NCBI GenBank assembly: GCA_028282905.1
Contig: JANQGW010000177.1
Coordinates: 1-64,000 of the forward strand
Source: Sedimentisphaerales bacterium
GTDB lineage: Bacteria; Planctomycetota; Phycisphaerae; Sedimentisphaerales; Anaerohalosphaeraceae
Reading direction: 5' to 3'
Length of the DNA: 64,000 bases
Part shown: piece by piece, positions 36,871-51,635 of the stretch
How positions within the stretch are numbered: position 1 is the stretch's first letter
Layout: each line of letters starts with the position of its first letter
Notes under the pieces: model-generated
The model's input: only the letters and a program-made list of their open reading frames with translations
What the model was told of the DNA's origin: nothing
The model's database searches: none
Translations under genes and position numbers: made by a program

Positions 36871-36903
36871 GTCACAAATGGTAACATAACCGTCACAATT
36901 GGT
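36871..36903 (+). promoter_or_regulatory. 12-bp direct repeat, possible response-regulator site
   Basis: GTCACAAATGGT (36871-36882) and GTCACAATTGGT (36892-36903) differ at one base and start 21 nt apart, two helical turns. The position upstream of the operon that encodes an OmpR-family regulator fits an autoregulatory site. No clear -35/-10 pair could be fixed. Confidence 0.4.
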
Positions 36904-36967
36904 CTTTATTTTCGACTTTCAGTTCAAGGAAATATCTGTTAACCTATGGATTCGAAAGGAGCCAACC

Positions 36968-39358
36968 ATGAAAGGAAAAGACACAATGAAGGCAGCAATC
37001 TGGATGCTGGCGTTTTTGATGGGGTGCGTTGCCCTGTCGCATGCGGCAAACTCAAAAAGCCCGGCGGTCCTGTTTCAGGAAGCCCTGTACCAGGAAGAAA
37101 CCGAAGGTGACCTGGACAAGGCGATGGACCTGTACAAGCAGGTCATCGAACAGGCGGCAGACGTGGAGCGCGTCGCAGCACGGGCAGTCTATCAATTAGG
37201 CCTGTGCCATCTGAAGAAAGGCGAAAAAGAGCAGGCCGCAACCTATTTCCGACAGGTCGTTCGTCAGTATCCCAAACAGGCGGCGGTCAACTCAAAAGCG
37301 CAAAAACAACTCAATAAAATTGCCCCCGCTAACGACATTATTTCGCAAAGCTATGTAATTCACTACAAAACAATAAACTCTTCAGAGGAAGGACTGAAGC
37401 TCTTCAATCAAAAACACCCAAAAGGCGTCAGAACCCATCACGCCAATCGGTATCGAAAAAATGGTGAGCAAATTAATAGCATCTGCACAGACACCCAGGA
37501 AGGCACAGACAAAATCGTTGAAATGCTTAGACAGCACCCACAGCTTGAGTTTATTAAAGTAGTTCCGCCTGTGTCTCAAGCCGGCAAGCAAGTTATTTTC
37601 ACTGACGGCTTTGAGAAAGGCGACAACACCCCCGACGGCTGGGTAAAAGGCCAGTCCGTTGACGGCGTGCATTATATTTGGGATCGCAAGAACGGCAGTG
37701 ACGGCAACTCAAGTTTATGTTTGAAAAAGACAGCTCAAACATATTTTCCGATCGCCCAGTGGACACGAAAGGTCGCACATACGGGCAATGCGAAAAAATT
37801 GTCCGTCTCGGCAAAAGTAAGAGCCAGAGGCGCTTACAAAGCGGTCATCGACGCTCTGTTCCTGGACGGCAGCGGCCAATGGATCAAACACGAATGGGTC
37901 TATTATATAGGGGCCAGAGAAAAAGGAGATCCGCCAACCAATCACAACTGGCTGAACTGCTCCGGCAGCGTCGAAATCCCTGACAGCACCAAAACCATCG
38001 TCATCGGTCTGCAAATGTACGGCCCGGGAACCGTGTGGTTTGATGAGGTGGAAGCTGCATATATTACTGACAATCGGGACAACACAGAATTTGCATATAA
38101 ACTCAATCAGACAGTCTCTGTCAATATTAGTCACAGTCCCAATAACAGCAAACTAAGCGTTCAATATGCAGTGATGGCAATTGCTAAAGCTGCTGGCGTT
38201 CCATATCAATGGGAGAAGAGTCAAAAACTCGCCGGAACAAAGGCCAGACAGTACATACAACCGGTTAATTTCGAAAACACTCCTGCAACCGAAGCACTCA
38301 TCGAAATTTTGGAAGCAGTTGGTTTGAGCTATTCGGTTGATGAAGCGGGAATATTCCTCTCAGACACTGCCGCTATTGTCGAAAAAGCTGTGCTGACGAT
38401 TTCGACTTGTGCGGAAACAGACCCGCGAATCAAAACGGCAATGGAAAGTCTTAAAAAACTGGATGAAACAGCTGTCGTTAATGAAATTGTTAAGCATCTG
38501 GATTCCGACGAAAACACTGTCCGACGTTCGGCGATTTACGTACTGTGGCAAGGCGGTTTTTCGACAATTGATCCGACGGTTAAAAAACTGGAAGCCCTCT
38601 GCTCACACTCCGAAGACCTGACCCGCGGCATGGCAGCACTGGCACTGGGCCAAAACAAGGTGTCTTCATCGTTTGATAGTCTCCGGAAAATGACACAGGA
38701 TGATGCAAGCAGTTACGCCAGACGCTGTGCGGCCTATGGGCTGGGGCTTCTGGGCAATCCCAAAGCCAAACCGGTTCTTGAAAAGGCCGTCAACGACCCG
38801 GACAAACTGGTACGAAGCAACGCCAACGCCGCCTTAAAAATGCTGGAGTTGGAGACACCGCCAGTGGCGGAAAATCCTGCTAAAGCTGATGAAATGAAAG
38901 CGGAAAGCCTGGCCGCGGAAGGCTGGACGCTTTGGCGACAGCGGAAATTACCTGAAGCGGAAGCAAAGTTTAAGGAAGCTGTACGGAATAACCCGGTTAA
39001 TGAAAATGCCTGGCAGGGTTTAGGCTGGGCACAGTTGAACCAGGGCAAGAAGAAAAATGCCGAAGATTCCTTCAAGAAATGTGTCAAGCTGAATCCGAAG
39101 AATTCGGCGGCATTGAACGGTCTGGGCTGGATCGCACACGGACAAAGCGATAAAGACACCGCTATCAAGTGGTGGGAAAAAGCCGTCAAGGCCAGCGGCG
39201 GCCACGCAACCGCCTCTTTAAACGGACTGACGCAGACGTATATGGAAATGAAAGAATATGACAAGGCCGTCAAGTATTACAAAATGTGGCTGAAGGTCGA
39301 GCCGAATAATCAGGACGCCAAAGCAGGACTGAAAAAGGCTAAGGCCCAGATGAATTAA
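36968..39358 (+). CDS. exported TPR/HEAT protein heading the two-component operon
   Basis: About 796 residues. AAAGGAG lies seven bases before ATG 36968, and a signal sequence follows (MLAFLMGCVALSHA; the Cys might be a lipid site but the lipobox is imperfect). Residues about 30-115 are TPR-like (AARAVYQLGLCHLKKGEKEQAATYF). A beta-sandwich lies at about 190-325. A short secretin/STN-like segment follows (NFENTPATEALIEILEAVGLSYSV), then HEAT repeats (about 470-630) and C-terminal TPRs (about 650-790, NPVNENAWQGLGWAQLNQGKK). It ends one base before the histidine kinase gene. Probably an envelope scaffold or sensor partner of the kinase. Confidence 0.8.
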   Translation: MKGKDTMKAAIWMLAFLMGCVALSHAANSKSPAVLFQEALYQEETEGDLDKAMDLYKQVIEQAADVERVAARAVYQLGLCHLKKGEKEQAATYFRQVVRQYPKQAAVNSKAQKQLNKIAPANDIISQSYVIHYKTINSSEEGLKLFNQKHPKGVRTHHANRYRKNGEQINSICTDTQEGTDKIVEMLRQHPQLEFIKVVPPVSQAGKQVIFTDGFEKGDNTPDGWVKGQSVDGVHYIWDRKNGSDGNSSLCLKKTAQTYFPIAQWTRKVAHTGNAKKLSVSAKVRARGAYKAVIDALFLDGSGQWIKHEWVYYIGAREKGDPPTNHNWLNCSGSVEIPDSTKTIVIGLQMYGPGTVWFDEVEAAYITDNRDNTEFAYKLNQTVSVNISHSPNNSKLSVQYAVMAIAKAAGVPYQWEKSQKLAGTKARQYIQPVNFENTPATEALIEILEAVGLSYSVDEAGIFLSDTAAIVEKAVLTISTCAETDPRIKTAMESLKKLDETAVVNEIVKHLDSDENTVRRSAIYVLWQGGFSTIDPTVKKLEALCSHSEDLTRGMAALALGQNKVSSSFDSLRKMTQDDASSYARRCAAYGLGLLGNPKAKPVLEKAVNDPDKLVRSNANAALKMLELETPPVAENPAKADEMKAESLAAEGWTLWRQRKLPEAEAKFKEAVRNNPVNENAWQGLGWAQLNQGKKKNAEDSFKKCVKLNPKNSAALNGLGWIAHGQSDKDTAIKWWEKAVKASGGHATASLNGLTQTYMEMKEYDKAVKYYKMWLKVEPNNQDAKAGLKKAKAQMN

Positions 39359-39359
39359 C

Positions 39360-41402
39360 ATGAGAGCAGACAACCTTTCCAATCAGTTACGGTGGGTAAT
39401 CTTGCTGCTGGCAGCAGCAGTGATCTTACCCACCGTCTGCCTGCTCTGGTTCATGAACCAGGCCGTCAAAAACGAAAGGCTGGCCGTCCGGCAAAAGCTT
39501 ATTGACGCTTATCAACCGAAGCTCGATAAGTTCATCTCACAATCGAGTCACTTATGGGAAGAATATATTACCGTCAAGACCGAACGACTGTCAAAGTCTC
39601 CTGAGTCGCAACTACATCACAATATGACATCTCAAGATTTCTCAAAAAATGCCGAAGCACTGCATTATCGTTTGAGAGATTGTATTCTATACAGAGAAGA
39701 GGGAACGATTTTATACCCCGAACTTAACATGACTGTTGCAAGTTTTCCGGATAGCGATCTTTTTAAAGAAGCAGAAAACCTGGAATACAACGCCAAAGAT
39801 TATTCAAACGCTTTAGAGAAATACCAAAACATACTCGACACTAAAGATGGTACCATCAACGAACTTAACAACCGATACGCCTTGTTTGGAAAGGCACGCT
39901 GCTTAGCGAAGCTTGGCCGGTGGAGAGATGCGGCAACAGCTTATGAAACAGTAAGCCAACTAGAAAGCATATTCGATCATTCTTTTGCTCAATTGGCTAT
40001 CCATGCTAAGCACAAAGCTTTCGAACTTCGATTTGTAAATTCTGAATATAAGACTAAAGAACACTCTCACGCGGCACAGCAAATATACTTTATATCGCTC
40101 TACGGCTTAAATATTATTGGTGGATCTCCAGACATTGAAAACAAAGTGTTTCTTTTAGAAAAGACAATAGAGATATATAAGCCTTATTTGGAATCTACTC
40201 TGATTCAACTTTTAACCGAACAAGCACAAGAAAAATTAGCACTACTTAAAAATGCTGTCATAATTGCTGATCGCTGTCCACACGCAAATGAATTGCCCTC
40301 ATGGCAAAACGGCAATTTTTATTGTCTTCCGACTAATGATGATTACTACGCACTCTTTTTAAAACAAGAAAGAACGGCACTGTTACTCTACACAGCAAGG
40401 GACCTTATGGAATACTTCAAGGCATGTGCCAATTTTTTTGCTGATATTCCGGGAATTCAATTTCAAGTTTGCGATTTAGTAAATGGCAAAATGCTTCTCG
40501 ACACCAACTCCTCGGAAACGGATGCTTTTTTATCCCAATCTCTTAATGAGCCATTTTCAGAATTTCAAGTATCCCTATATTTTTCCGATTCAGCAATATT
40601 TGATAATGCCGCAAACCGTCAGACTACAATCTATATTTGGAGTGGAGTTCTAGTGGCGTTATTCATACTCTGTGCCGGAGGTGTTTCGATTCGGGCGGTG
40701 AGTCGGCAGATTCAGATGAACCGGTTAAAGAATGATTTTATTGCGACGGTGACGCATGAGTTGAAGACGCCGCTGTCTTCGATGCGGCTTTTGGTGGATA
40801 CACTTTTGGAAGGCCGGTATGAGGACAAGCAGACGGTGCCGGAGTATTTGGGGCTGATTGCCAATGAGAACAAGCGGCTCAGCCATTTGATTGACAGCTT
40901 TTTGACGTTTTCGCGGATGGAACGCAACAAGCAGGTGTTTGATTTTCAAAATGTTTGCCCGAAAGACATCGCCTCGGCAGGTGCTGAAGCCGCCCGGGCC
41001 AAGCTGCGTCACGGCGGCTGCAACTTCGACATGGACATCGACGCCGCCCTGCCGATGCTGCGAGCCGATAAAGACGCGCTGGTCACGGTACTGGTTAACC
41101 TGCTCGATAACGCCTGCAAATATTCCGGCGACGATAAGCACATCTGCCTGAAGGTCTATTCGCAAAACGGCGAAGTCTGCTTTGCAGTCACAGATCGCGG
41201 TATCGGCATCTCCAAACGCGTGCAAAAGAAAATATTCCAGCGATTTTACCAGGTGGACAGCCGGCTGAGCCGCTCCTCCGAAGGCTGCGGATTGGGCCTG
41301 AGCATTGTACAATTTATCGTCGAAGCCCATAAAGGCACCATCAATGTCGAAAGCCAGCCGGGTCAGGGAAGCACATTCACCGTGAGACTGCCGGCAGTAT
41401 AA
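39360..41402 (+). CDS. sensor histidine kinase with TPR-like extracytoplasmic domain
   Basis: 680 residues. A membrane helix near the N-terminus (about 12-32) and a second at about 423-445 bracket a ~390-residue outer domain with TPR-like helices (ALEKYQNILDTKDG, RWRDAATAYETV). Then come HisKA with phospho-acceptor H466 in VTHELKTPLSS and the ATPase domain with N584 in LLDNACKYSG, DRGIGIS and GCGLGLSIV. The start lies one base after the previous stop with no separate ribosome site, so translation is likely coupled. The outer domain is AT-rich compared with the kinase core. The natural partner is the regulator two genes on. The signal is unknown. Confidence 0.92.
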   Translation: MRADNLSNQLRWVILLLAAAVILPTVCLLWFMNQAVKNERLAVRQKLIDAYQPKLDKFISQSSHLWEEYITVKTERLSKSPESQLHHNMTSQDFSKNAEALHYRLRDCILYREEGTILYPELNMTVASFPDSDLFKEAENLEYNAKDYSNALEKYQNILDTKDGTINELNNRYALFGKARCLAKLGRWRDAATAYETVSQLESIFDHSFAQLAIHAKHKAFELRFVNSEYKTKEHSHAAQQIYFISLYGLNIIGGSPDIENKVFLLEKTIEIYKPYLESTLIQLLTEQAQEKLALLKNAVIIADRCPHANELPSWQNGNFYCLPTNDDYYALFLKQERTALLLYTARDLMEYFKACANFFADIPGIQFQVCDLVNGKMLLDTNSSETDAFLSQSLNEPFSEFQVSLYFSDSAIFDNAANRQTTIYIWSGVLVALFILCAGGVSIRAVSRQIQMNRLKNDFIATVTHELKTPLSSMRLLVDTLLEGRYEDKQTVPEYLGLIANENKRLSHLIDSFLTFSRMERNKQVFDFQNVCPKDIASAGAEAARAKLRHGGCNFDMDIDAALPMLRADKDALVTVLVNLLDNACKYSGDDKHICLKVYSQNGEVCFAVTDRGIGISKRVQKKIFQRFYQVDSRLSRSSEGCGLGLSIVQFIVEAHKGTINVESQPGQGSTFTVRLPAV

Positions 41403-41429
41403 CAAGCTATTAATTAAGGAGTTGAGAAA

Positions 41430-42905
41430 ATGAAATATCGGATTCAGACATTACTGGCATCCCTTTTTGTCACTGTGTTGGCCATGAGCCAGCCGGTAGA
41501 AGCCAAACAGCTTGAATTTTCCCTGACAGACAGCTACGGACGGAAGGTCACCTCACAGGACTATATTGGCGTACCCATTTTCCTTGAATTCGGTGCGTGC
41601 TGGTGAGGCGGCTGCCAACAACAAGCGCTCCGTGTCGGAGCGATCGCTAAAAAATATCAGAAATCCGGACTGCTGGTCATTCGCGTCATCTCCGGCGATA
41701 ACGAATTGCAGGCCCTGGACTTCCAGAAGCACTACCGGATGGGCGCGGTTTATTTGATGGACCCGAATCGCTCCTTTGAACGCAAATACAACAGGAACGG
41801 CTGGCCGTTTTTGATGCTGGTTGATGAAACCGGCAAAATTGTCTACCAGTGCAATAATTTAGTGGATCGAGACAAAACCTTCATGCGACATCTGCAAACG
41901 ATTGCCAAAACACCCCGAAAGGCAGACATTCAGACTGCTGACAGGATTCCCTATCTCCGCTCCACGCTTGCCAACAACAAGGAAAGCGATGCGCCTCGAA
42001 TCAATGAACGCTTTACCTCGCTGGCATGCGGTGTTGATGACACAATATATACCACCTATACCGCAACCGAGAACGGCAACAGCAATGTCTATCTGCGCGT
42101 GCAGAAAGGCTCAGAAAAACCGAAAATTATCCCGGTTGCTGCTACAGATGCCGACGAATACGACGGTACCGTCATTACCGATGCACAGGGCAAGGCATGG
42201 GTCTGCTGGACCAGCAATGAACGCGGGCGTATCTATAATATCTACTTGAACAGCCTGGATCGGATTACAAACCAAAAGCCCGCAAGAGCCGTCTCGCAGT
42301 CGAAAGAAGACGTCATGCATGGGCGGATGGCAGCAGATGCATCGAATAATATCTGGGTGACTTACTATAAATGGCACAAGATCAAGAATATCTCCCGTGA
42401 CAAAGAAGTCTATGTTCGAAAGTTCGGCGAAAGCGGCATCTCGAAAGAAATTCAAATCAGCCCGACCGATGTTTCGCAATATGAGGACCATACCGACTCA
42501 ACGATTGCTATTGTCAACAATCAGCCGGTTATCTGCTGGAGCTGGGACTTCCACCAGCCGAAAGGCTATACCAAAGAAGCGCATTCGCCGACCATTTTTG
42601 CCCGCGCACTGAACCAGCAGGGACAGCTGCAGAAACTGTTTCATCTCAGTGATAAATCGATTGATATGACCCCGGTTATCGATGTCTTCGGTGATGAACT
42701 TTGGTGCGCATGGGATGCGTTGGGAAAAAGCAAGAAGGCATTATGCTTACGGAAATTATCCACTGAAAAAACTTCTGGCAGCAAAATAATTCTCGCAGAC
42801 AACCTTGTCAATACCTGCAGCCCTGATTTTGCGTTCTACAAAGGTCAAAAAGGAGCAATTGTCTGGTCACAAATCGAAAATGGCAAGGACTGGTCCCTGT
42901 GGTAA
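41430..42905 (+). CDS. putative selenoprotein: thioredoxin-fold (UxxC) plus beta-propeller-like protein
   Basis: ATG 41430 follows AAGGAG. The frame runs 492 codons with an in-frame TGA at codon 59 (41604-41606), read here as selenocysteine. Signal peptide at about 1-25. The thioredoxin-like domain (26-150) has FLEFGACW-U-GGCQQQ, so Sec59 takes the first position of the WCxxC active site with C62 as partner, and the cis-Pro loop NGWPFLMLVDETGK is intact. Residues about 165-491 are repeated blade-like strands (DAQGKAWVCWTS, DASNNIWVTYYK). A hairpin at 41626-41642 follows the TGA. The gene lies between a histidine kinase and its likely regulator. A second in-frame stop, TAA 42903-42905, comes 55 codons before the stop at 43071. 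If TGA is not recoded this is a pseudogene. Confidence 0.8.
41604..41642 (+). promoter_or_regulatory. UGA codon and putative bacterial SECIS hairpin
   Basis: TGA at 41604-41606 is followed after 19 nt by a perfect stem CGCTCC (41626-41631) / GGAGCG (41637-41642), extendable to 7 bp, with apical loop GTGTC. The distance from UGA to loop is 25 nt and the first loop base is G. Both fit the published consensus for bacterial SECIS elements (loop 16-37 nt after UGA, G among the first two loop bases). Confidence 0.72.
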
Positions 42906-43074
42906 GCTGACTACAACGCACAAAATAGAAAATGGAGTAAGCCCCGGATGATTGTTTCTGAAAGGAACCCGAGATTTGCTTCGTGCGATTTTGACTCGCA
43001 GGGGCATTTGTGGATATCATATTCAATACAAACCGATAAAGGCAGAGAGGTAGTCGTTAAACAAGTTGACTAAT

Positions 43075-43761
<687 letters not shown>

Positions 43762-46485: not shown

Positions 46486-47049
46486 TTATTTTCGCTTACG
46501 TGCCATCAGCAAGCCTGCCGCGAGCAGCGCCATGGTTGCCGGTTCAGGAATCGTCATATTCGCATTGCCCCAGACACCGCTATCCACATTCAGACCTTCG
46601 ATGCCCCCGTCCCAGAGGTATTCCGCATCAATACTGCCGCCATTGCCGATCCAGGTCTGCCCGCCGTCCTGGGTGTCCCCAAGCCACCACCAACCGTGAT
46701 AATCACCTGCGGTGTGAGAATCGCCATCAATTGCTGTCTGATCGTAGGTGATATCCTCCACAAATCCCCAGTCATAATTGTAGGTAATCTCCAGTGACTC
46801 AACCGCGGTGTCAATATCATCTAATGCATCAGCAACGGTTTTATCGCCATCCCAGCGATATCCGAAAAGATGGTACTCGGTACTGTACGGCCCGGCCGTT
46901 CCGTTCCAGTCGATTGCAACCACACATTCATTGCTGCCGGTACCAACCCACTGATCAATCGTCAAGTCAACACCCTGAATCAAATACGCATGACAGAAAG
47001 AAGCCGTCATCAAAATACCACACATCACCCATTGAATCTTATTTTTCAT
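46486..47049 (-). CDS. PEP-CTERM surface protein, B12-riboswitch operon
   Basis: 187 residues. Signal peptide (MKNKIQWVMCGILMTASFCHA), a Trp- and Asp-rich domain (VVAIDWNG, YHLFGYRWDGD, HGWWWLGD, TWIGNGG), then an exact PEP-CTERM sorting tail: IPEPATMALLAAGLLMARKRK (PEP motif, hydrophobic helix, basic end). Such tails are recognised and cut by exosortases; one is encoded at 51648-53675. GGAG lies eight bases before the ATG. First gene behind the cobalamin riboswitch. Function unknown; the aromatic residues would suit ligand binding. Confidence 0.88.
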   Translation of the reverse strand: MKNKIQWVMCGILMTASFCHAYLIQGVDLTIDQWVGTGSNECVVAIDWNGTAGPYSTEYHLFGYRWDGDKTVADALDDIDTAVESLEITYNYDWGFVEDITYDQTAIDGDSHTAGDYHGWWWLGDTQDGGQTWIGNGGSIDAEYLWDGGIEGLNVDSGVWGNANMTIPEPATMALLAAGLLMARKRK

Positions 47050-47332: not shown

Positions 47333-47435
47333 GATTGCTATCGCATCAAAGTGTTGCCCCTCACTCACAGACGGTCTTCGTCCGGTCGGGCAACTGCGCC
47401 GTTGTTCCAATCGCGAGAACAAACCAACACGTTCT

Positions 47436-47637
47436 GAATCACAGGCAAGGTTTTCTGACTCGCGTCCTACTTTTCGGCCCCTTCCCATCCATCACTGGAC
47501 AGTGGGACAATGCCGGAAAGATTTGCACCGTTTTGGTACAATGGACACACACAGCGGCGCGACCGTCACGGATTTTCACCGTGTTCCCTTTTGGTTATTC
47601 AGCAGTAGGTTTACACCTGCCGCTGAACCTGAAATTC
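47436..47637 (-). ncRNA. cobalamin riboswitch
   Basis: On the minus strand: P1 pairs 47628-47637 with 47436-47445. The conserved boxes AAAAGGGAA and GGTGAAAATCC (47570-47580) are followed by CGGTCGCGCCGCTGT (47551 onward). The 3' box GAGTCAGAAAACCTTGCC (47449-47459 is its core) completes the aptamer. The order and spacing over about 200 nt match the adenosyl/hydroxocobalamin aptamer family. A terminator follows, so B12 is expected to switch transcription off. Confidence 0.92.
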
Positions 47638-47672
47638 ACTCTTAGATTCTCAAAGAACTTTGATCGGGGGAT

Positions 47673-47773: not shown

Positions 47774-49363
47774 CTACCCAAACTGTCCCAGGAAGGAATG
47801 GATGAGCTTTTGGGCGGTTTTCCAGCAAATCCAGAGGTCTTTACGAAATGACAGATTTCTGACATAACGGGTGTCATAAAAAACCCATTCCTGGAAATCC
47901 ACCCCCTCTTTGCGCGTTCGCATCACCTGCCATAAGCCCGTAATACCGGGACGGACCGACAGACGGGCATCCCGCCAAGCCGGCGACGATTCATTTTCGT
48001 TCTCCGGCGACGGACGCGGCCCAACAATACTCATTTGTCCCAGCAGCACATTGATAAACTGCGGTAGCTCATCAATATACGTATCCCGAAGGAATTTTCC
48101 CACACCTGTAATGCGCGGGTCATTGTCCATCTTAAACTGCGGGCCATCGACCTGGTTAACGGCTCTCAAACGCTCCTGCATCGTATCGGCTTCCACCATC
48201 ATCGAACGAAACTTCAGGCAGTCAAAATCCCTGCCATGTAAACCCTGGCGGCGAGCACGATAGAAAATCGGCCCCGGTGACGTCAGCTTTAAAATAACGG
48301 TAACCACGGCAAAAATCGGAACAAGCATAATCAAAACCACCGTAGCAGCGAGAATGTCAAACAACCGTTTTCCGAATCGGGCATAAGAGCACAGCGGCCA
48401 GTTCTTATACTCTTCCCGAAGCATTGCCAGCCGCCCCTGATTTACACAGCGACACGCCCCGTCTCCAGACTCTCGAACAGCCGGGATGTCTGTTTCACCA
48501 TGTAAAACAATCTGATTATCAACAACCTGATTATCCTCAATCACAGTATGCTCGGTTAGAATCGAACGGCGAACCACCGCTCCGGATTTCACATGCACAT
48601 GATCGGACAATACCACCGGTCCAACCAATGTCGCACCCGGTTCAATCGTAACACCATCACCCTTGAAAATCGGGCCAACCGCTCTGTATCCGTCACCTTC
48701 AACAACAGCATCGAACTCAAATTCCTCAAGGCAGTCCAAAAACGCGGTTGGAGTATCAAAACTACGGCTCTGTCCCCCAACCCGAAGACTCACAAGCCGG
48801 CACTGCTGCTGGCCAAGACGCTGCTTCAATTCACCAAAATCCAGCGGCAGGTGTCCGTCGGGACAAATGCTGTCCCAGGCATGGCGTTTAATCATCAGGA
48901 TATCCGGCCATTGCGAAGGCGGAGCCGTCGGCTCAACCGAAGCGGTATAAAAACGTCGAAACCCAACCACATTTGACGCGGGAGTTAGTTTGAGGGTTTC
49001 CTGAGATGCCTGTAAATGCGGGCTAACCTGAATTGAAACGACATCCCACGACAAAGCCTTCAGCCTCTCTTCAATCTGGTCAGCGTCAATTGCATAAAGG
49101 CCGCGACCACTTAACAAGCAAATCTCATCGGTATCAGACTGACTGATAATATCAGCCGCATCCCAGGTATTCTGCTGATAACTGAAGGCATGAAGTTTCT
49201 TGAGCTGCGGGTTCTCTGCAAGCCACTGGCTCGGCAGTAATACATTGGCCTGTCCATAGGGATGTTTTTTGGCAAATGCACTAATAAAATCGGCGCCGAA
49301 CGGTCGAGACATACAGAGCTGCCTCATAAGCCCTTTTTCATCCTGAAAAACCAATATCCTCAT
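47774..49363 (-). CDS. polyprenyl-phosphate sugar-1-phosphate transferase with LbH/nucleotidyltransferase-like N-terminus
   Basis: 529 residues. The N-terminal ~225 residues resemble a degenerate nucleotidyltransferase. Residues about 230-300 are a left-handed beta-helix hexapeptide segment (GVTIEPGATLVGPVVLSDHVHVKSGAVV). One membrane helix (about 332-355) precedes the bacterial sugar transferase domain with FDCLKFRSM, YIDELPQFINVLLGQMSIVGPRP and RPGITGLWQV. It would start repeat-unit synthesis on undecaprenyl phosphate for the exopolysaccharide. It starts 13 nt after the chain-length/kinase gene and is the last gene of the cluster before the riboswitch. Confidence 0.9.
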   Translation of the reverse strand: MRILVFQDEKGLMRQLCMSRPFGADFISAFAKKHPYGQANVLLPSQWLAENPQLKKLHAFSYQQNTWDAADIISQSDTDEICLLSGRGLYAIDADQIEERLKALSWDVVSIQVSPHLQASQETLKLTPASNVVGFRRFYTASVEPTAPPSQWPDILMIKRHAWDSICPDGHLPLDFGELKQRLGQQQCRLVSLRVGGQSRSFDTPTAFLDCLEEFEFDAVVEGDGYRAVGPIFKGDGVTIEPGATLVGPVVLSDHVHVKSGAVVRRSILTEHTVIEDNQVVDNQIVLHGETDIPAVRESGDGACRCVNQGRLAMLREEYKNWPLCSYARFGKRLFDILAATVVLIMLVPIFAVVTVILKLTSPGPIFYRARRQGLHGRDFDCLKFRSMMVEADTMQERLRAVNQVDGPQFKMDNDPRITGVGKFLRDTYIDELPQFINVLLGQMSIVGPRPSPENENESSPAWRDARLSVRPGITGLWQVMRTRKEGVDFQEWVFYDTRYVRNLSFRKDLWICWKTAQKLIHSFLGQFG

Positions 49364-49376
49364 GCGCGTCTTCTGT

Positions 49377-51635
49377 TTACTTCTCTATCGGTTCAAGAGT
49401 TTCGTCAATCTGTTCAGCAATCAGCAATGTCGCGGGGGCATGTTTTCGACGCTGTTTCTGCTTTTCCTTTGAAGATTTACCGTAATCATAACCATAGCCG
49501 TAGCCGTAGCGGCGGTAGCTGTGAGAAACCTTGACATTATTGACAACGGTCCCCAGAATGTTTGCGCCGATTTCATGCAGCCGGTCGGTCGCCTCGTGCA
49601 TCTCTACTTTTGAGGTGTGCCCTACATAGCTGGTCAGAAGAACACCGTCCGAAATGCGTGCCAGTACCAAAGCATCCGAAAACGCAAGAACCGGCGGCGT
49701 ATCAATAATAATCTTATCAAATGAATCACGCAGCTTCTGAATGCGTTTGGTCATTTCAGGATGCGACAGTATCGTCAGTGCGTCAGAGATATTACGATGG
49801 TCAGATGCCAATACATAAAAATCCATCGTATCCATTTGATAAATCGCCTTTTCAAGATCGGCGCCAAACAGATATTCCTGGAATCCCCGATGGCTGCCCG
49901 GAAGCTTTAAAGCGCGGGCAACATCCGGCTTCCGAAGGTCGGCATCAATCAATAATGTCTTGTAGCCGGACTGGGCAAAACTGGTGGCCAGGTTGATCGA
50001 AAACGTGGTCTTTCCGTCAGCCATGCCGGGACTGGTCACCACAATCATCTTGGTATTTTCCGCATCGTCCATCAATCCGATATTGGCACGAATGGTTTGG
50101 TAATCATCCATAAGCTGCTGGGGCAGCAGCTTTTTATCCACGTCCTGCGGAGACGTTGTCGTCCCGATAATGCGAACGCCAATACGCTTGGCCATATCCT
50201 GCGGCGTCCGTAATCGCTTGTCCAGTTTGCCGAGCACAAACGCGATCATGACGCCCAGTACTCCACCACCAAAAATCGAGGCCAAGGCCATTTTTCGTCG
50301 CTTACCTTCCGCTTCCACACTCCAGGCGTAAGATCCCACTGAAATCCGGGGCAGACGGGACTGCTCAATCCTCAACTCTTCAATCCGACGGCAAACCTCT
50401 TGATAAAGACTCTTGGCCTGATCCAGTTGCTCCTGGTAGTCATCAATTTCAAACTGCTTTCGTCCCAGGCCAATGGTGTCCTCATCATATTTTTCCAATT
50501 GAGTTCGCAATCGGGATTCATAGTCAATTGTCTGGGTCAATTCACTTTGAAACTGCTCCAGTTCCCCGGTCCGTGCCCTGAGAATCTCCTTTTTGACCTG
50601 TTCGGCCACTTCGGAGGCAATTTCACTTCGCCGTTTTTCGAGCTGCCGCTTCAAATCCCCCAGTACTTCCACACGCTGTTTCAGTTCCGGGTTGTTCGGC
50701 TTCATCAAAGCCTGGCCCTCACGCACCAGATCCTGGTACTTTGTCACATCGGTACGGAGCGAAACAACAATCGGATCCTGCTCGACAATCTCCTGCTGCT
50801 GTGATTCCATATCCTCAGCAGTCAGTTTCGCATCAAGCTGTTTTTTCTTCATTTCCACCTGGGTTTCCAGCATAATCCGCCGGATACTGATCGCAATCAG
50901 TTCCTCCTGAATCGTGGCGACCGTAGACAGCATCATTTCCTGCCGACTAGTCAACTCCTCCGTTCCATATTCCTGGGCACGCTGACGAATCTTTATGTGC
51001 TGCTGTTCCATCTGGTCTTCCAGGATTTGTTTCCGCTTCTCCAGCGTCGCCAACCGGATGTTGTCCTCTTTGGTTTCAGCCAGGCCAACCGTACTCATAT
51101 AGCCATTGATAATCGCATCAATCACCTGTTTGGCATCATCCGGATAGTCAGTGGTCATCTGAATATTGATAAATTCATTGCGGGGTACCGGATGAATACG
51201 AATTCTCTCCTTGAGCACCATTTTTCTCAGCGTCAGGTAAACGTCTTCACCAGAGGCAAAGAAAATAAGATTTTTATCCTTTAATTCATCTGCCGCACGC
51301 TGGAGCGCATCATCGCCTCCAATGAGCGCCACCTGGGTATATTTAAATCGATCATACGAAGGCGTTAGACCTTCGGTATCGTACATAATCGGATTTTCCC
51401 CTTCGGATACCTGAATCGAGGCGTTCGTGTCATATTTTTTCCCCATCATAAAATAGGTCACCGCCAAGCCGCCTCCGCCAACCATAAGAGTAACCAGCAT
51501 CACAATGTACCAACGCCTTAATATCGGCATCAGAAGTTCCATGGCAGACGCCTGCGATTCTTCCGGCGGCGGGCCGTCAAACTGAACTACCTCCGAAACA
51601 ACCGGCAACTCGCGATTTCTTTCGAATTCCTCCAT
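49377..51635 (-). CDS. chain-length determinant/tyrosine autokinase (Wzz-BY-kinase fusion)
   Basis: 752 residues. Wzz-type domain with membrane helices at about 38-60 and 450-470 and a long periplasmic coiled coil between them. The cytoplasmic BY-kinase domain has Walker A in SPGMADGKTT (about 531-540), Walker A' LLIDADLRKPD (about 560) and Walker B IIIDTPPVL. It ends with a Tyr-rich cluster (YRRYGYGYGYDYG) for autophosphorylation and a basic tail. It controls polymer length and export of exopolysaccharide. Located between the exosortase fusion and the priming transferase, as in exosortase-linked polysaccharide loci. Confidence 0.95.
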   Translation of the reverse strand: MEEFERNRELPVVSEVVQFDGPPPEESQASAMELLMPILRRWYIVMLVTLMVGGGGLAVTYFMMGKKYDTNASIQVSEGENPIMYDTEGLTPSYDRFKYTQVALIGGDDALQRAADELKDKNLIFFASGEDVYLTLRKMVLKERIRIHPVPRNEFINIQMTTDYPDDAKQVIDAIINGYMSTVGLAETKEDNIRLATLEKRKQILEDQMEQQHIKIRQRAQEYGTEELTSRQEMMLSTVATIQEELIAISIRRIMLETQVEMKKKQLDAKLTAEDMESQQQEIVEQDPIVVSLRTDVTKYQDLVREGQALMKPNNPELKQRVEVLGDLKRQLEKRRSEIASEVAEQVKKEILRARTGELEQFQSELTQTIDYESRLRTQLEKYDEDTIGLGRKQFEIDDYQEQLDQAKSLYQEVCRRIEELRIEQSRLPRISVGSYAWSVEAEGKRRKMALASIFGGGVLGVMIAFVLGKLDKRLRTPQDMAKRIGVRIIGTTTSPQDVDKKLLPQQLMDDYQTIRANIGLMDDAENTKMIVVTSPGMADGKTTFSINLATSFAQSGYKTLLIDADLRKPDVARALKLPGSHRGFQEYLFGADLEKAIYQMDTMDFYVLASDHRNISDALTILSHPEMTKRIQKLRDSFDKIIIDTPPVLAFSDALVLARISDGVLLTSYVGHTSKVEMHEATDRLHEIGANILGTVVNNVKVSHSYRRYGYGYGYDYGKSSKEKQKQRRKHAPATLLIAEQIDETLEPIEK

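Follow-up and report, generated by a model that had tools for sequence, protein, structure and literature searches.

This analysis concerns a 64,000-nucleotide stretch of the genome of a Sedimentisphaerales bacterium (assembly GCA_028282905.1, contig JANQGW010000177.1, positions 1 to 64,000 of the forward strand), hereafter the window, and a gene within it whose single in-frame TGA is predicted to encode selenocysteine (Sec, U). A sequence-only reading had proposed a selenoprotein with a thioredoxin active site and a propeller-like C-terminal half, encoded at 41430-42905 between the genes of a two-component system. The gene and its features are as follows.

41416..41421, plus strand: ribosome binding site AAGGAG (direct reading)
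41430..43073, plus strand: gene for the Sec-containing thioredoxin-propeller protein, full family frame, interrupted in the window copy by a TAA at 42903
41430..41504, plus strand: predicted signal peptide, residues 1-25, ending ...VEA and followed by KQ (direct reading; the N-termini of homologues are also hydrophobic)
41511..41909, plus strand: ResA/TlpA-like thioredoxin-fold domain (Redoxin/AhpC-TSA), about residues 28-160 (Pfam, ResA structure profiles, AlphaFold2 model)
41604..41606, plus strand: UGA codon predicted to specify Sec59 of the UxxC motif U59-G-G-C62 (TGA in 10 homologues, cysteine (Cys) codon in 4)
41624..41644, plus strand: putative bacterial Sec insertion sequence (SECIS) hairpin, nine positions a side with a UGU loop (covariation, synonymous-codon control)
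41997..43070, plus strand: predicted C-terminal beta-propeller, about residues 190-547, seven blades by our strand count (AlphaFold2 model; Foldseek, VIA-align)
42903..42905, plus strand: premature TAA, found in the window copy only (lysine or arginine in the nearest homologues)

Direct reading of the window shows that the ATG at 41430 opens the frame and that codon 59, at 41604-41606, is its sole internal TGA. This TGA occupies the first Cys position of a WCxxC-type active site, W58-U59-G60-G61-C62, and a cis-proline loop, GWPF, follows at residues 124-127. The frame, its start, the motif, the signal peptide-like N-terminus and GWPF are all as the sequence-only reading had described them. The end that it gave is not, for 42905 is not the natural terminus: the family stop, also a TAA, lies at 43071-43073, one base ahead of the ATG of the response regulator gene at 43075.

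Is the TGA a chance occurrence? Homologues were sought among relatives, throughout the order and in samples of the class and phylum. In nine full-length homologues the corresponding codon is again TGA and is the only one; their identities to the window protein are 69% (G004), 53% (G088), 50% (G031), 46% (G132), 45% (G134), 29% (G443), 26% (G715), 26% (G752) and 22% (G586). The recurrence of an identical TGA, with no other stop, in nine further genes argues that it did not arise by chance. Including the window, there are ten Sec genes in ten genomes, spanning 22-69% identity to the window protein. Alignment of relatives at residue 59, proposed as a check on the selenoprotein, revealed Cys in four (G114, G160, G373 and G441), where the motif is CWCGGC and the Sec codon is replaced by TGC or TGT. 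These Cys forms group as one clade (support 97/95) among the Sec forms in a midpoint-rooted tree, which suggests that a single Sec-to-Cys change lies behind the clade and that Sec is the likely ancestral state, as far as a midpoint root allows. A second-pass profile built from all 14 members and run on the same samples yielded no additional full-length member, and the family therefore appears rare; within the order, 9 of 161 genomes contain it.

Three of the Cys homologues carry extra domains: an N-terminal HEAT domain in G114, a C-terminal S41 peptidase domain in G160, and an N-terminal Ig-like domain, slightly under the cut-off, in G373. The fusion in G160 (L074 9057-11678) joins the Cys-form thioredoxin-propeller to an S41/tricorn-type peptidase domain, and a C-terminal domain of this type is also fused to a fragment of the propeller that lies at the end of a contig (L083 2-1498, G004:C89).

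The hairpin directly follows the UGA, with 26 nt between the codon and the 3-nt loop. Over the ten Sec sequences, 91% of cells are paired, compared with 75% in shuffles, and five of the nine pairs covary, both sides changing while pairing is kept; the covariation score is 0.553, and no more than 0.146 when the partner strand is slid. Eight or nine of the nine positions are paired in nine of the ten Sec genes, while the four Cys genes form 0, 0, 2 and 2 pairs in the same register. Because it is paired in Sec genes and nearly unpaired in Cys genes, the hairpin goes with the UGA. Energy z-scores for single hairpins were weak (-0.2 to -1.5), and covariation and a synonymous-codon control were used instead. 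In this control, which compares the observed pairing with that of random synonymous codons drawn from each gene's own usage, eight Sec genes gave P values between 0.0014 and 0.017.

Does the host have the means to insert Sec? The source assembly (5.7 Mb, 243 contigs, 93% complete), which has Phycisphaerae as its nearest named relatives, carries the full set of genes on one contig, C49:

C49:22521-23876: selA (E 4e-161)
C49:23928-25814: selB (E 6e-96)
C49:17038-17961: selD (E 3e-111)
C49, beside selD: tRNA-Sec (70.9 bits)

This removes the objection that the genome might have no Sec machinery. Among the 15 host genomes, selB exceeds its cut-off in 10; it is not detected in G160, whose assembly is 97% complete and which carries a Cys form. 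The selD gene of the source genome (L082 4691-6124, G000:C49) encodes a Cys-rich N-terminal extension, CVCDPKKPCPCDLFKEKNICLC, together with a C-terminal extension, and the tRNA-Sec gene lies directly downstream.

The two halves of the protein were characterized by profile searches and by structure prediction. Residues 28-140 match Redoxin and AhpC-TSA in Pfam with 49.4 and 49.1 bits against cut-offs of 26.6 and 26, and among proteins of known structure the best relative by sequence profile is ResA; the NCBIfam cut-offs for ResA (48.1 against 170 bits) and DsbE (21.8 against 123 bits) are not reached. For AlphaFold2, three sequences served as input, with the window TAA set to lysine and U to Cys. 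The resulting model (mean predicted local distance difference test score, pLDDT, 71.6; predicted template modelling score, pTM, 0.66) shows a thioredoxin fold followed from about residue 190 by a propeller, and thus supports the propeller-like C-terminal half that had been proposed. The closest structural matches to this half are CylK (Z 34-35) and the PLL/PHL lectins (Z 27-29), and in Foldseek human NHLRC2 matches both domains of the model with a large root-mean-square deviation. The only Pfam propeller repeats detected are Reg_prop, SGL and PD40, all weak, and the NHL repeat has no Pfam match at E 0.01. Three propeller sites, SRDxE (322-326), EDH (352-354) and WxWDxH (370-375), belong to the best-conserved positions of the whole protein across the 14 homologues.

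We consider it highly probable that the gene product is an exported selenoprotein of two domains, in which a ResA/TlpA-type thioredoxin domain with a W-Sec-G-G-Cys site is joined to a seven-bladed propeller. That the UGA is read as Sec by way of SelB and the SECIS hairpin is, short of chemistry, very well supported by the comparative data, and the Sec machinery, the ten Sec and four Cys homologues and the covarying hairpin together lend strong support to the selenoprotein with a UxxC site that had been suggested from the window alone. In the mechanism that we propose, SelB bound to the hairpin directly after the UGA would deliver Sec-tRNA, and the signal peptide and the family relationship point to export and a location in the envelope. 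By analogy with the family, the selenol of Sec59 would be the attacking group in selenol-thiol exchange and Cys62 the resolving group, while the propeller, to judge from the conservation of SRDxE, EDH and WxWDxH, may hold a substrate or partner. The protein is thus most likely an exported selenol-thiol oxidoreductase, a predicted role.

Several points weigh against this picture. The case for Sec incorporation is computational throughout, and the structure model was built on three sequences only, with a mean pLDDT of 71.6. The window copy is interrupted by the TAA, which reflects either a real truncation or a wrong base. The cis-proline loop is not retained across the family: GWPF in the window protein is GWTF in the Cys homologues, and the loop is absent from the most distant Sec homologues, so that the catalytic cycle may differ from that of ResA. 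No selB gene was detected in four Sec-bearing genomes, G004, G134, G752 and G586, whose assemblies are fragmentary or incomplete. Finally, the hairpin of G443 is marginal in the codon control (P 0.04), and that of G752 is shifted in register, with a 5-nt loop by our reading and four of nine positions paired in the common register.

Could the TGA simply be a nonsense mutation, or an error in sequencing? The presence of a TAA in the same gene lends this some color, but the TGA is common to ten genomes, with that TAA as the only further stop, and the covarying hairpin is missing from the Cys homologues; we regard this explanation as scarcely credible and reject it. Reassignment of UGA to another amino acid, under which the frame would also be open, is more remote again: each gene has one TGA, always at the redox Cys, the genome holds a complete Sec apparatus, and the G004 homologue uses TGA as its own stop. 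It too was rejected. A third possibility concerns the window copy alone and is compatible with a selenoprotein family. Here the UGA would be a true Sec codon throughout the family, and the TAA would have killed the propeller in this copy, leaving it decaying or inactive. The TAA is confined to the window, where the two nearest homologues have lysine and arginine at the corresponding residue, 492; loss of the 55 residues beyond it takes away the last part of blade 6 and the whole of blade 7, by our strand count on the model; and in G094 the thioredoxin half is gone from a related operon. Yet past the TAA the reading frame continues without a stop for 55 codons (42906-43070), which align to the homologues. 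The ratio of nonsynonymous to synonymous substitution rates (dN/dS) of these codons relative to G004 is 0.23, compared with 0.27 for the propeller before the TAA, a measure taken over the whole window-G004 divergence and insensitive to a recent loss. Since the downstream codons keep a propeller-like dN/dS, the TAA is either very recent or a base error in the metagenome assembly. We treat decay of this copy as a serious possibility, though not the one we favor.

Why would such a gene lie within a two-component operon? The sequence-only reading had placed a histidine kinase and an OmpR-type regulator on either side, which Pfam confirms, and had proposed that the protein is an envelope redox sensor feeding the kinase. 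The neighboring genes are:

36899..39358, plus strand: TPR/HEAT repeat protein, first gene of the TPR-kinase-regulator cassette (Pfam TPR, HEAT)
39360..41402, plus strand: sensor histidine kinase (HisKA and HATPase_c; Pfam)
43075..43761, plus strand: OmpR/PhoB-type response regulator (Response_reg and Trans_reg_C; Pfam)

Most of the relatives that were examined keep the TPR/HEAT gene ahead of the kinase. In favor of a dedicated sensor, the order TPR-kinase-Sec gene-regulator occurs both in the window genome (G000) and in G031, and a partial contig of G004 preserves the kinase C-terminus, the Sec gene and the regulator. The order recurs in G132, where two regulators come some 3.4 kb further along; in G094 a propeller without the thioredoxin half follows the kinase, starting about 20 nt past the kinase coding end (L081 7953-8918, G094:C20). 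That two families share the arrangement suggests that co-expression brings some advantage. On the other side, relatives of the kinase are found in 78 of the 161 genomes of the order and the thioredoxin-propeller protein in 9, and the gene is unlinked to the cassette in five genomes: in G088, assembled as a single contig, Sec gene and kinase are about 2.8 Mb apart, and none of the four Cys homologues is linked to the cassette. This is not the co-occurrence expected of a dedicated accessory sensor. Moreover, G001, of the same genus, has TPR, kinase and regulator with a kinase-regulator gap of 16 nt and nothing between, and in other relatives this slot is short or filled by unrelated genes. Differing genes of this kind lie at L096 8200-9460, L098 8096-8710, L101 7350-8030 and L102 7335-7860; by our reading the slot gene encodes a ChaN-like product in G087, an MGMT-like one in both G157 and G160, and a membrane protein in G028.

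The proposal of a redox sensor feeding the kinase is therefore not supported, and we judge it unlikely; a core role in the two-component system was rejected. To judge from gene content, the kinase system plainly works without the thioredoxin-propeller protein. The position of the gene inside a signaling operon is an optional insertion, which does not demonstrate a sensor role, and the kinase cassette would probably be, for the most part, a shared transcription unit. Some coupling to the kinase system, for which the repeated co-location in two families allows, seems unlikely to us. Slightly less likely still is that, in the lineages with the gene between kinase and regulator, its product has been co-opted as a periplasmic redox partner of the kinase; if so, the output of a single two-component system would depend both on selenium supply, through UGA read-through, and on the redox state of the envelope.

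How does the predicted protein compare with known systems? With ResA and TlpA (PF08534, PF00578; Bacillus ResA, 1st9 and 3c73) it shares the thioredoxin fold, export (predicted here), an active-site motif at the N-terminal end of the first helix and, in the window protein and its closest homologues, the cis-proline loop; it differs in having Sec for the first Cys, a long C-terminal propeller and a score of 48 rather than 170 bits against NCBIfam ResA. A 2026 review recognizes 119 prokaryotic selenoprotein families or subfamilies (PMC13188914), its Table 1 listing a "Redoxin family protein" (PF08534, UxxC), a "Thiol-disulfide isomerase-like" protein (cd02966, UxxC) and a Prx-like thiol:disulfide oxidoreductase, all UxxC thioredoxin-fold selenoproteins. 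These have in common with the window protein a Sec at the first UxxC position of a redoxin/TlpA-like domain. The table gives no propeller partner for any of them, and the words "propeller" and "two-component" are absent from the main text; the distinction is drawn from descriptions rather than by comparison of accessions. NHLRC2 has a thioredoxin-propeller layout with a CCINC motif facing the propeller cleft and a six-bladed NHL propeller, and it has eukaryotic and prokaryotic homologues, with no mention of Sec (PMC6107167). Human NHLRC2 (6gc1) shares the Foldseek match across both domains but differs in its motif and its six NHL blades, compared with W-U-G-G-C and seven blades by our count. 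Membership of the NHLRC2 family was rejected, with no NHL repeat at Pfam E 0.01 and no CC(I/V)NC motif. CylK (7fh6/7ron) and the PLL/PHL lectins, the best structural matches to the propeller half (Z 27-35), have 10-13% identity to it, and no common function is implied.

In a literature search of partial coverage we met no account of a thioredoxin-propeller selenoprotein, and none of a kinase operon that includes a Sec protein. Provisionally, we regard the thioredoxin domain with a seven-bladed propeller as an architecture new to an already known kind of selenoprotein, the listed redoxin selenoproteins being known to us by description only. The combination was found in no inventory searched, and it adds a well-supported selenoprotein family whose genes annotation pipelines would end at the UGA. 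Sec copies are spread across several families, inside and outside the sampled class, with one Cys clade among them, which makes this a good case for Sec-to-Cys exchange in which the hairpin is lost along with the UGA. It also illustrates that an unusual gene in a two-component operon may suggest a function that comparison across relatives fails to bear out.

Elsewhere in the window, a cobalamin riboswitch (47427-47647, minus strand, 77.9 bits) lies upstream of a short PEP-CTERM gene (46486-47049, minus strand), which is not an obvious B12 gene. Exopolysaccharide-type genes, for a bacterial sugar transferase and a Wzz/AAA chain-length protein, occupy 47774-51635 on the minus strand.
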